Assembly: GCA_020722965.1 (NCBI GenBank)
Contig: DYJT01000003.1
Span: 62,001-126,000, forward strand
DNA from: Brachyspira murdochii
GTDB taxonomy: Bacteria; Spirochaetota; JAAYUW01
DNA: 64,000 nt
Reading direction: 5' to 3'
The notes beneath the pieces were generated by a model, which saw only the letters and a list, made by a program, of their open reading frames with translations, did no database searches and was not told the DNA's origin. The position numbers were made by a program, and so were the translations under genes. This document shows, piece by piece, positions 4,904-21,861 of the stretch. Position 1 is the stretch's first letter. Every line of letters starts with the position of its first letter.

Positions 4904-6131
4904 GAAAATTTCAACAAAGATAATTTTGTTTTTAACATTTGGTTTTTTGTTAGGTCTTTTTGTTACTTATGTCCCTGTTTTACATAAAATAAGCCAGTTA
5001 ATCGAACAGTTCTTCTTGAAATTATTAACATTTATAGTAAAACCATATATCTTTTTCTCTATAATTATCGCATTTTCGAACTTAAAAGATAGTGGGAAGA
5101 CAGGCAAGATTTTCCCCTTATTCTTTTTATTTACATTTTTATCTGGTCTTATTGCCACAATTATGTCAATTGGTTTTTCAATACTTATAAAACCAGGTTT
5201 TCAAATAGATCTTTTCGATGCCAAGACTCCAATATTGATAGAATTTGACAACATCTTTAATACAATTTTATCTTATATCCCCAAAAACTTTTCAGATATT
5301 TTTTCAAATAATATTTATCAGATAATCCCATCCTTTCTAATCGCAATGTTCATAGGTATAGCTATCTATTACTCAGTAAAAAGAGGCGAAATATTTTTGA
5401 ATTTTGTAAAGTCGGTTGAAGAAATAATGGATTATATAAATTTATATATCATCGAAATTTTTACATTTTCAACTTTTTTTATAGGATATGGACTTGCAAA
5501 TTCAATCAAACAGACCCAAAATTTTATTTTTCTTGTCAAACCGATGATAGTTATAATTTTCACACTTATTTTTCAGGTCTATATAATTCCTATGATATTA
5601 ATATTTTTCTGGTTGAAAAAAAACCCTATTACCTATTTTAAAAGCGTTTTGGGTGCTCAATTATCTGGTTTTGCAACAAGTTCGGTAATCACAAATTATC
5701 AAAATATCTTATTCCATTCCGAAAAAAATCTTGGGATAAACAGAACTATATCATCTATATATACGACACTTGGTTTAATTTTTAATATAGATGGAATTGC
5801 CATAACTTCTATAATCGGATTTTTCTATATTCTACAAATCCAGCAAGTTTCACTTTCTTTCCTTGAGATTCTCCCTCTTTTACTTGGGATGTTGTTATTA
5901 TTTATAGTTAAGGATGGATTTGCTTACCCTGAATTGCCTGCAGTAGTATTATTTCTATCTATTTCCGAAACATTACCTTTAGATATGCGGGCATTATTTG
6001 CTGCTGGATTATTTATTTTTTCCAGGTTATCATCCTTTATAACATCTTCTTCAATAATCTTTATTAACTATTTGATATCTGAAAAATACTTACGCGTTGC
6101 TTATATTCCACCATCCAAAGACCAAATTTAG
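4902..6131 (+). CDS. Dicarboxylate/amino acid:cation symporter (SDF family, GltP/DctA-like)
   Basis: A 409-residue, very hydrophobic protein with about eight membrane segments and re-entrant loops. The family's substrate and sodium sites are recognisable but divergent. FATSSVITN stands where SSxATLP is usual, TTLGLIFNIDGIA replaces PxGxTxNxDG (the NxDG core is kept), and VKDGFAYPELPAVV matches the HP2 region. Members import aspartate, glutamate, C4-dicarboxylates or neutral amino acids using Na+ or H+. The loss of the canonical LP after SSxAT and of the proline in PxGAT leaves substrate class open. It is transcribed divergently from the oxidoreductase operon and has the duplicated ribosome binding site described separately. 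Confidence 0.85.
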   Translation: MKISTKIILFLTFGFLLGLFVTYVPVLHKISQLIEQFFLKLLTFIVKPYIFFSIIIAFSNLKDSGKTGKIFPLFFLFTFLSGLIATIMSIGFSILIKPGFQIDLFDAKTPILIEFDNIFNTILSYIPKNFSDIFSNNIYQIIPSFLIAMFIGIAIYYSVKRGEIFLNFVKSVEEIMDYINLYIIEIFTFSTFFIGYGLANSIKQTQNFIFLVKPMIVIIFTLIFQVYIIPMILIFFWLKKNPITYFKSVLGAQLSGFATSSVITNYQNILFHSEKNLGINRTISSIYTTLGLIFNIDGIAITSIIGFFYILQIQQVSLSFLEILPLLLGMLLLFIVKDGFAYPELPAVVLFLSISETLPLDMRALFAAGLFIFSRLSSFITSSSIIFINYLISEKYLRVAYIPPSKDQI

Positions 6132-18550: not shown

Positions 18551-19174
18551 TTAAATTTCACAAATATAAATTGTCGAAAATTCGGTTTTTATTTTATCAA
18601 TTTTTGCAAAATATTTTTGCAAAACCAGGTTTATCTTATTTTCAGGATGATTATAAAACTTGATGTAAGTTTGTTCCTTCAAAAAAGGAAGTTGGAATCC
18701 CTTTTTTTGTTCAATATTGTTAAATATGAATATTCCTTCGCTGTTTAAAGAATTACTGACATTTGAAAAAAAGCTTTCTATATCCTGTATATGGACCAAA
18801 AGAAAAAACGAATAAATTAGATCGAAAAGAAAATCTATTTTTGCTTTTTCCAGATTAATTTTAATAAACTTAACATCTGTTCTAATCTTCTTTTTTGCTA
18901 TTTTCATCATATCTTGAGAAATATCTAATCCAAAAAGATTATTATTTTTATACTCCTTCTTTAGCAAATAAGATTCAACTCTTTTTAACACTCTTCCATC
19001 ACCACAGCCTAAATCTGCTAAAAAGATCTTTTGATTCTTACCATAGATGAAATCTATTTTTGAATAAAGTAGATTCTTGGTTATTTCCCAATCAAATGAA
19101 TCTAGATGTTGATAATATTTATAGTAATAATGAGAAAATAATTTATAACCTTCTTCACAATCGACTATTTTCAT
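18551..19174 (-). CDS. Class I SAM-dependent methyltransferase
   Basis: A 207-residue protein with motif I LADLGCGDGRVL near residue 52, acidic motif GLDIS, an INLEKA segment for motif III, and FDLIYSFFLLVHI (motif IV region) of the Methyltransf_11/25 type. The substrate is unknown. The only reasonable start is the ATG at 19174, yet no ribosome binding site precedes it. The bases just upstream are the GC stem and U-run of a structured RNA (see 19175-19350). Translation may therefore depend on read-through of that RNA, on a weak leaderless start, or the coding start may be wrong. Confidence 0.75.
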   Translation of the reverse strand: MKIVDCEEGYKLFSHYYYKYYQHLDSFDWEITKNLLYSKIDFIYGKNQKIFLADLGCGDGRVLKRVESYLLKKEYKNNNLFGLDISQDMMKIAKKKIRTDVKFIKINLEKAKIDFLFDLIYSFFLLVHIQDIESFFSNVSNSLNSEGIFIFNNIEQKKGFQLPFLKEQTYIKFYNHPENKINLVLQKYFAKIDKIKTEFSTIYICEI

Positions 19175-19350
19175 AAAAAACCCGGGGTATCGGCTCCGAA
19201 GGTTATGTTAACCCTTAAGTTAACTAGGGTTCCCTTATGCAACCGCCGGTAGCTAATGCATAACAAAAGCCGCCAATTGAATTGCCATTGGGATTCCCTT
19301 CCCTCTATGTGTAGGTTCACATATTTGTCCAGAAACCGATTATCCCAGGC
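19175..19350 (-). ncRNA. ssrS: Structured RNA, probable 6S RNA
   Basis: This island of about 176 nt has 81 G+C in its first 170 bases, far above the surroundings. On the minus strand the ends pair as GCCUGGG...CCCCGGG and AUCGGUUUC...GGAGCCGAU (16 bp with a small internal loop). A large bubble follows; its 5' side can form UAUGUG-aaccua-CACAUA and its 3' side GUUAAC-uuaagg-GUUAAC. The inner arm is long and irregular (GGGaaUCCC with GGGaaCCC, then CAAU/GUUG and GGcgGC/GCuaCC). Closing stem, central bubble and irregular terminal stem-loop, at this length, form the 6S RNA architecture. Six U follow the closing stem. The identity is inferred from structure, not from a covariance search. Confidence 0.55.
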
Positions 19351-19356
19351 AAAAAA

Positions 19357-19384
19357 CAAATACCATATTTTAATGAATTTTCAA
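19357..19384 (-). promoter_or_regulatory. Candidate promoter of the 6S-like RNA
   Basis: Minus-strand TTGAAA (19384-19379) is separated by 16 bases from TATTTG (19362-19357). The first base of the RNA closing stem lies seven bases downstream, where transcription would be expected to start. Confidence 0.45.
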
Positions 19385-19430: not shown

Positions 19431-20387
19431 TTATTTCAATAATCCATTAACTATCATATTTACCGCTTCTTCTTCGTTTAATCCTCTTGCCATAAGAGTT
19501 TCTAGCTTCTTCCTATCTATTCTTCCAATCGAAGCCTCATGAGTAATCTCTGCGAGGGAATTTTTTACACTAATAATCGGAGTGGAATATGCAACAGCAT
19601 CTTTACCATAAACTATCTCCTGGCAATCAGTATGACCTTTTGTGTAGCTTTTGTTGCCCTGAACCTCTCCCAACACACTACCATAAGCCTTATCTTTTAA
19701 TACAACTCTGCTTTTTGCTATCCCAGTTGCATATTCGCCATTCAAAATTAGAGATTCTCTAATCTCGATCCTGTCATCTGCTTTCCCGTAAACTTTTGTA
19801 TCTAATTTGCAAACACTTTTTTCCAATTGCTCTATTTCATAGTCTATTTTTAATATTCCAACTCTTCCTACGACAAGTTTAAACTCTTCATTTAAATAAC
19901 TTGATTTTGCAATTTTGCCTCTTAATGTAGGAAAAACTTTAACACCGCCAGAATTAGAATGATAATGAGTTTCTATATATTCCATTTCTGCTTCTTCATC
20001 TAGATAAACCTTGCTATCCATAATATGAATTATATTTTCGGCATTAGGAAAAGAGCAATGAGCTATAAATTTTACTTTTGATTTTTTCCCAATATGAAAT
20101 TCTGATTTTATAATCTGCTTTCCTTCTTTTGGAAGCATTCCAAAGCAAAGATGAATAGGTAAATTTTTAACAACACCATCTTTTATGTAAATCTTGACCG
20201 AAATGCCATCTTTTATCTTTTTGGTATTTATATCAATCCCTTCGGTCTGATTTTTTAATAAAACTTTATCATTATTTATAACTAGACTATCAAATTTTTT
20301 ATCCATTAAAGCAGAAGCATCTTCACCAATTTTCTCATAAGTTTTAATTATCGTTTCAAATTCTTTAGAATAATCTATACTATTCAT
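19431..20387 (-). CDS. SufB/SufD-family scaffold protein of a minimal SUF (SMS) system
   Basis: A 318-residue protein with the SufBD beta-helix core and the conserved C-terminal blocks KGHTDCQEIVYG and EITHEASIGRIDRKKLETLMARGLNEEEA. It is much shorter than SufB (about 470) because the N-terminal region is absent, as in the short SmsB-type proteins. With the SufC ATPase encoded 2 bases upstream it would form the SufBC core that assembles iron-sulfur clusters in the cytosol. No SufD, SufS or SufU is present in the window. This fits the reduced two-gene systems of many anaerobes, in which inorganic sulfide rather than a cysteine desulfurase may supply sulfur (inference). Confidence 0.88.
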   Translation of the reverse strand: MNSIDYSKEFETIIKTYEKIGEDASALMDKKFDSLVINNDKVLLKNQTEGIDINTKKIKDGISVKIYIKDGVVKNLPIHLCFGMLPKEGKQIIKSEFHIGKKSKVKFIAHCSFPNAENIIHIMDSKVYLDEEAEMEYIETHYHSNSGGVKVFPTLRGKIAKSSYLNEEFKLVVGRVGILKIDYEIEQLEKSVCKLDTKVYGKADDRIEIRESLILNGEYATGIAKSRVVLKDKAYGSVLGEVQGNKSYTKGHTDCQEIVYGKDAVAYSTPIISVKNSLAEITHEASIGRIDRKKLETLMARGLNEEEAVNMIVNGLLK

Positions 20388-20389
20388 TT

Positions 20390-21115
20390 TTATATAACCT
20401 CATTTATTTCACCAATATGATCGCAAGTTTTACAGTTCTTCTTAAAATATTCTGTTACCTCGTTGGTCGGTCCATCTTTCACGACTTTCCCATTACATAT
20501 CAAAAGAGCTTTATCACCAACCTTCGTCATCTCTTCATTATGAGTTATCAATATAGTTGATGCTCCTATCTTTTTGAAACTCTTTATTAGATTTTTGATA
20601 ATATGAATAGAAGCTATATCTATACCAGAGTCTGGCTCATCAAGAATTACAATCTTAGGTTTAATGGACAATACTGAGGCTAATTCTATCCTCTTTCGTT
20701 CGCCCCCACTCAAATTTTCATCTACTATTCTATTGAGATAAAGTTCTGGATTTAGTCCTACCAAATGTAAAAGTTTCTCTTGATTATTGTTTCCACCAAT
20801 ACTTAAATATTGTGAAACAGTAATCCCTTCGAAACTAGCGGGAGATTGCCAGGCTAGGGTAATTCCTAATTTCGCCCTTTGCGTTATTGAAAAATTCGAA
20901 ATATCCACACCATTAAATAAAATTTGACCTTTAGAAGGTTTATAACCTTCAAGTCCCATTATAATAGCTGCTAAAGTCGTTTTGCCTGTTCCGTTGAGTC
21001 CAAGTATCGAATGTATTTCATTTTCACCAATAGAAAGATTAAAACCTTTTAATATATCTTTTTCACCGACATTGAAATGAAGATCCTTTATCTCAAAAAC
21101 GAAATTTTGTGACAT
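20390..21115 (-). CDS. sufC: SufC-type ABC ATPase of the minimal SUF system
   Basis: A 241-residue soluble ABC ATPase: Walker A GLNGTGKT, Q-loop LAWQSPASFEG, signature LSGGERKRIELA, Walker B IVILDEPDSGID and switch LITHNEEM. The WQSP and DSGID variants are the SufC signatures. The start is set at 21115 (MSQNFVFEI): GGATTAG precedes it, and the upstream DGC gene stops at 21117, one base away, whereas the longer frame would overlap it by 44 bases. A C-terminal KKNCKTCDHIGE adds a Cys-x2-Cys not seen in E. coli SufC. Confidence 0.93.
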   Translation of the reverse strand: MSQNFVFEIKDLHFNVGEKDILKGFNLSIGENEIHSILGLNGTGKTTLAAIIMGLEGYKPSKGQILFNGVDISNFSITQRAKLGITLAWQSPASFEGITVSQYLSIGGNNNQEKLLHLVGLNPELYLNRIVDENLSGGERKRIELASVLSIKPKIVILDEPDSGIDIASIHIIKNLIKSFKKIGASTILITHNEEMTKVGDKALLICNGKVVKDGPTNEVTEYFKKNCKTCDHIGEINEVI

Positions 21116-21116
21116 T

Positions 21117-21542
21117 CTAATCCTTTCCTTTATCTGGTAACTTTGAAACTTCTGAAACAATTTTTTCAGTTATTCTGTTTACATCATCATCATTAAAATC
21201 AAGTGTAGGAATTTTCTCTACATTTTCTTTTGATATGATTATTTCATAGGTAGGCTTAATATTCAGTTGCCTTAATATTTTTGAAGCACACTCATTTGGA
21301 CAACCATTGATAACTATGAGTTTCTTAGCTTTTTCAGCGATTCCAACATGTGTTGGAGACCTTGCTGCCACTGCAGATAAGCAGCACATTCTGGTATTTT
21401 CGACTTTATTAGTTAATTTGACTGCTACCGCATGCCCTACCTGGCCTACTGAAGCAGCCCCATCACAAGCAAGTACAATGTCAAGATTTTCTGCTTCTTT
21501 TCCACAATGAGGTAATAATGTGTAGTTTTTTTGATTCTCCAT
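21117..21542 (-). CDS. DGC-domain (putative zinc-binding) protein upstream of sufC
   Basis: The 141-residue protein matches the DGC family (PF08859). It has LACDGAASVGQVGHAVAV (Asp-Gly near the ACDGAA cysteine), a CCLSAVAARSP segment and the VINGCPNECASKIL motif. The cysteines could bind metal; biochemical function is not established for the family. The ATG at 21542 is chosen because AAGGA lies seven bases upstream; a longer GTG frame would start inside the palindrome at 21585-21618. It is followed one base later by sufC, so the three genes form a tight operon and the protein is a candidate partner in iron-sulfur assembly. Confidence 0.8.
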   Translation of the reverse strand: MENQKNYTLLPHCGKEAENLDIVLACDGAASVGQVGHAVAVKLTNKVENTRMCCLSAVAARSPTHVGIAEKAKKLIVINGCPNECASKILRQLNIKPTYEIIISKENVEKIPTLDFNDDDVNRITEKIVSEVSKLPDKGKD

Positions 21543-21584
21543 CTGAATATCCTTAAATTTAAGTTTCTTCCGATTCCCCAATTT

Positions 21585-21618
21585 GCAAATAAAAATCAAT
21601 AATATTGATGTTATTTGC
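21585..21618. promoter_or_regulatory. Palindrome in the leader of the DGC-sufC-sufB operon
   Basis: Arms GCAAATAA and TTATTTGC (8 bp) enclose ATCAAT and ATTGAT (6 bp) with a one- to two-base asymmetry between the two helices and a 3-base centre. A further TGCAAAT half-site lies at 21634-21640. The site is 43 bases upstream of the DGC start. It may be an operator (for example for an Rrf2-type iron-sulfur regulator) or an mRNA hairpin. Confidence 0.45.
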
Positions 21619-21861
21619 ACAATTGCGTGTTACTGCAAATATAATTATATATTTAATAATGTCAATATAATGTCAATCAAATATAACTTAAAATTTCCCA
21701 CTGTAAGAATATCCCCTTATCATTTATTCATAAAATTTTTCTATCATCATTAACAATATTCTTGTAATTTATCAATTATATAATATTATAATTTTAAGAA
21801 AAAATCAATCCTAAATATTAAATTTTATTTTTAAAGATATTTTAATAAAAGGAGAGTTTTT

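Follow-up and report, generated by a model that had tools for sequence, protein, structure and literature searches.

The minus strand of the 64,000-nucleotide stretch of DNA analysed here (the window) carries, from position 19350 to 19175, a G+C-rich island in AT-rich surroundings: 81 of its 176 bases are G or C, against a GC content of 27.8% for the window, and only 0.03% of the 176-base stretches in the window are equally G+C-rich. The island holds a probable 6S RNA gene (ssrS; 19175-19354, minus strand, the span that matches three Spirochaetota 6S models, R1, R2 and R3), whose likely transcript of about 176 nt would run from approximately 19350 to 19175. On the same strand lies a promoter (19357-19384) made up of TTGAAA (19384-19379), a 16-base spacer and TATTTG (19362-19357), from which transcription is expected to start near 19350. 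The RNA ends in a U-run encoded by six T (19175-19180), and the ATG (19174-19172) of a class I SAM-dependent methyltransferase gene (18551-19174, minus strand; Pfam Methyltransf_11/12/25/31) follows directly, with zero gap, as a downstream neighbour outside the RNA gene. A preliminary description had picked out the G+C-rich core, the promoter, the minus-strand fold and the U-run touching a start codon, and all of these were borne out; it had left the choice between a 6S RNA and a large leader that controls the methyltransferase. A 62-aa frame (19359-19171) that traverses the RNA gene was unsupported and was set aside.

Folded as RNA, the minus strand from 19360 to 19169 gave -66.0 kcal/mol compared with -48.9 +/- 3.9 kcal/mol for shuffled sequences (z -4.4; 0 of 200 shuffles as stable), whereas the plus strand gave a z of -1.1 and a structure on that strand was rejected. 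In the predicted minus-strand fold the 5' strand of a closing stem, GCCUGGGAUAAUCGGUUUC (19332-19350), pairs with positions 19197-19180, and the same 3' strand (19180-19197) is indicated by alignment. The 5' side of the central bubble spans 19306-19331 and includes a predicted hairpin at 19323-19306 (UAUGUGAACCUACACAUA); CUACACAUA on this side is common to the window RNA, its orthologue in a congener (85% identical RNA, on JAAZOT010000059.1, a Spirochaetales MAG) and a 6S RNA from the same order. A second hairpin, GUUAAC ... GUUAAC, is predicted on the 3' side of the bubble (19207-19224) by the minimum-energy fold; its sequence is kept in the orthologue, and the best folds of the two RNAs differ there. 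Between the two sides of the bubble, alignment to R1 places an internal (apical) arm at 19226-19299, opened by a GGGAAUCCC ... GGGAACCC helix that is conserved in Spirochaetota 6S RNAs. Overall, the window RNA forms 24 of 25 consensus 6S pairs. Counting against a 6S assignment, the central bubble in its minimum-energy fold holds a larger number of local hairpins than that of a textbook 6S RNA.

Searching all Rfam families at their gathering thresholds gave no match at the element. The 6S family RF00013, which the preliminary description had proposed as a check, gave no score on the window RNA even at E values up to 10 and found nothing in the whole of the window genome or in its two congeners. 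Neither did any other family, a match to which had been named as grounds for abandoning the 6S reading, produce a significant hit: the best permissive match was Qrr, on the other strand, whose 16.9 bits fall short of the cut-off of 50, and we regard the permissive matches in the window (E up to 10) as chance. Of 60 relatives across the phylum, 31 gave a 6S RNA with RF00013 at E values up to 1, and in 24 the match exceeded the cut-off; the one genome from the same order (G003) scored 47.7 bits against a cut-off of 46.4. Judged by the RF00013 gathering score, which is the curated cut-off of one model rather than a biological feature, the window RNA falls outside the 6S family. By RF00013 the 6S slot in this genus is empty.

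We relied on models from within the phylum, none of whose first 20 members, all 6S RNAs found by RF00013, comes from this genus. The covariance model built from these 20 Spirochaetota RNAs (R1) matched the window RNA over the full model at 41.6 bits (E 4.6e-8), the sole strong match in the window genome, where the next best reached 11.8 bits; the congener orthologue scored 45.8 bits (E 3.9e-9). To check whether the same-order sequence had carried this result, it was removed from the R1 set. The resulting model (R2) still matched the window RNA at full length in a direct scan of the window, with 29.0 bits (E 9.7e-6 for 64 kb) against 16.4 for the next match, and scored the orthologue at 35.1 bits (genome E 1.1e-5). 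A point against the assignment is that the R2 prescreen of the whole genome missed the window copy, which appeared in the direct scan alone. Model calibration was short and the E-values are accordingly rough, so that the argument is carried by the gaps in bit score. A third model (R3), which includes the window sequence itself, gave 83.7 bits. Thus models that exclude the RNA's own sequence connect it to 6S RNAs already accepted in the phylum, as the best R1 match in the genome and the best R2 match in the window. The second-best window match of both 6S models, at 5932-5997 on the plus strand (15-16 bits), comprises a CCUGC...GCGGG stem only and is probably a plain hairpin.

The 6S RNA of the same-order genome (contig 16, 74502-74691) was found by the same models as the window RNA. 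By eye, the two share a 5' GCCUGGGAUA, CUACACAUA, a GGGAAUCC arm and a GGGUUUU 3' end, and a closing stem and a 3' U-run are also common to both; they differ in the apical arm, the sequence of the 3' bubble and the neighbouring genes, and the same-order RNA, unlike that of the window, passes the RF00013 cut-off, if barely. The likeness extends to the RF00013 family (6S / SsrS) in length, closing stem, central bubble, U-run and an apical arm opened by a GGGA-UCC ... GGAACCC helix, the window RNA having diverged beyond what the Rfam model scores. These comparisons bear on whether the element could be some other, undescribed structured RNA that merely resembles 6S, as the negative results for RF00013 and every other Rfam family might suggest. 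Against such an RNA stand the matches, at full length and with no competitor of similar score, to two 6S models from which the genus is absent, as well as the kinship to the same-order 6S RNA, for example in the 5' GCCUGGGAUA and the 3' UA(C/U)CC(C/U)GGGUUUU; we consider it very unlikely. RF00013 alone would have wrongly spoken against 6S identity; the window RNA fills the slot that this model leaves empty.

Base-pair changes among relatives, another check suggested at the outset, also agree with the 6S structure. In an alignment of 24 sequences (A6), which was fitted to the model so that pair counts lean towards it, 93.5% of cells at the consensus 6S pairs were paired, compared with 41-51% when partners were slid, and two-sided changes occurred at 17 of the 25 pairs. 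For the helix that opens the apical arm, 97.5% of cells were paired across the 24 sequences, with two-sided changes at 5 of 7 pairs. Compensatory changes in this model-fitted alignment thus support the closing stem, the central bubble and the apical arm. Support for a separate transcription unit comes from the orthologue, which has TTGATA-16-TATAAT at the place matching the window promoter (11/12) and ends with eight T at the U-run, while its flanks have diverged; the TTGAAA-16-TATTTG of the window, taken alone, is unremarkable and lies under the promoter-scan threshold. The orthologous RNA, at 85% identity, is better conserved than the methyltransferase protein encoded next to it (56%). Judged from sequence, the locus has the makeup of a free-standing gene, some 160-200 nt long, that has a promoter and a terminator of its own. 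Taking homology, conservation, base-pair support, promoter and U-run together, we conclude, with a probability of roughly 0.93, that the element is this genome's 6S RNA (ssrS), about 176 nt long, with its own sigma-70-type promoter and a U-run end behind the closing stem.

The position of the U-run against the methyltransferase start codon invites a different reading, in which the RNA is a cis-acting, riboswitch-like leader with a terminator at the start codon of the gene it controls. The shared strand, the contact between U-run and ATG, and the adjacency of RNA and methyltransferase in both the window genome and the congener would fit such a leader. A leader or riboswitch would also keep a constant position directly before its gene, and this RNA does not: in the congener a stretch of 62 bases, showing no clear conservation, separates the U-run from the ATG of the methyltransferase, and in the same-order genome contig 16 carries the 6S RNA and contig 4 the closest methyltransferase homologue. 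The RNA, moreover, matches a trans-acting family. The leader reading of the preliminary description is not supported by these comparisons, and we rate it as very unlikely. Because of the 62-base gap and the separate contigs, the RNA gene appears to be free-standing, and the contact between U-run and start codon is a peculiarity of spacing. The absence of a Shine-Dalgarno sequence at the methyltransferase start, correctly reported beforehand, is not unusual: among the window's 42 long ATG frames, a crude test finds such a site in 15 and none in 27, and nothing special has to be invoked to explain a start codon that lacks one.

Compatible with 6S identity, and in addition to it, read-through of the 6S terminator might produce a bicistron, so that methyltransferase output would partly follow 6S transcription. 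The shared strand, the zero gap and the adjacency in two genomes speak for this, as does the E. coli ssrS-ygfA unit, in which a 6S gene is likewise followed by a same-strand protein gene (PMC2848244), although the E. coli neighbour is YgfA and the one here a methyltransferase. Against it, RNA and methyltransferase are not adjacent in the same-order genome. On balance we regard some bicistronic expression as possible, at somewhat less than even odds. A stronger version, in which the 6S terminator has become joined to the methyltransferase start in this lineage and read-through sets the output, seems improbable; if true, it would place a modification enzyme under the influence of growth phase. 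No regulatory link between RNA and methyltransferase is apparent from the sequence evidence, and the methyltransferase is a separate gene, whose transcription may come from read-through or start at a promoter within the RNA gene.

Members of the 6S family imitate an open promoter and restrain RNA polymerase. By analogy with the family, the window RNA would fold into a rod whose central bubble resembles an open promoter, and in stationary phase it would be bound to the housekeeping RNA polymerase holoenzyme; upon nutrient upshift the polymerase would use the bubble's 5' side as template for a short product RNA (pRNA), and the 6S RNA would be released. 6S RNA binds the housekeeping holoenzyme and leaves it when the pRNA, for which the 5' bubble and the closing stem serve as template, makes the RNA refold (PMC8876501). 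The window RNA appears to have the parts for such pRNA-driven release, namely the closing stem, the bubble and the apical arm. Its predicted fold also contains a helix in which GAGGG of the 5' bubble pairs with CCUUC on the 3' side of the inner closing stem, and which persists when the 5' strand is blocked as a pRNA would block it. This helix resembles the collapse helix in the 6S-1 RNA of B. subtilis, a likeness that we offer as a suggestion only, the helix being already present in the unblocked fold. Ms1 RNA of Actinobacteria is another 6S-like RNA that binds RNA polymerase (PMC9130861); it is about 300 nt long, carries additional hairpins at its ends and binds core polymerase, and there is no indication of a relation to the window RNA. 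Beyond its divergence from the Rfam model, the window 6S RNA is ordinary biology.

A 6S RNA is thus present in a spirochaete genus where the Rfam model reports none, and calls of 6S absence in this phylum consequently need care. R3 recovered 6S RNAs in five surveyed genomes that are negative by RF00013: the window genome, the congener and three of another genus. The matches in this other spirochaete genus, in G011 (L051), G057 (L059) and G034 (L060), are full length at 59-76 bits. About half of the surveyed spirochaete genomes, several single-contig genomes among them, yielded no 6S RNA with R3, reflecting either further divergence or real loss. No 6S RNA was found in the third genome of the genus (G002), a point against the assignment, although this genome is incomplete; a weak match on its contig 124 (14.8-15.5 bits) lacks the closing stem and was rejected. 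Short BLASTN matches in G003, G033, G047 and G056 (E 0.001-0.004, 23-35 bases) were judged to be chance, that in G003 lying outside its 6S locus.

In G002 the DHH-type gene, the neighbour of the RNA in the congener, is close to the edge of a contig, and the region upstream of it is different and does not contain the RNA. In the window, the genes at 19431-21620, which encode a SufB/D-like protein, a SufC-like ATPase and a further small protein, lie between the 6S RNA and the gene for a DHH-type phosphoesterase (21862). The 6S RNA and the DHH-type gene directly adjoin in the congener (L002), indicating that this block was gained or lost there.
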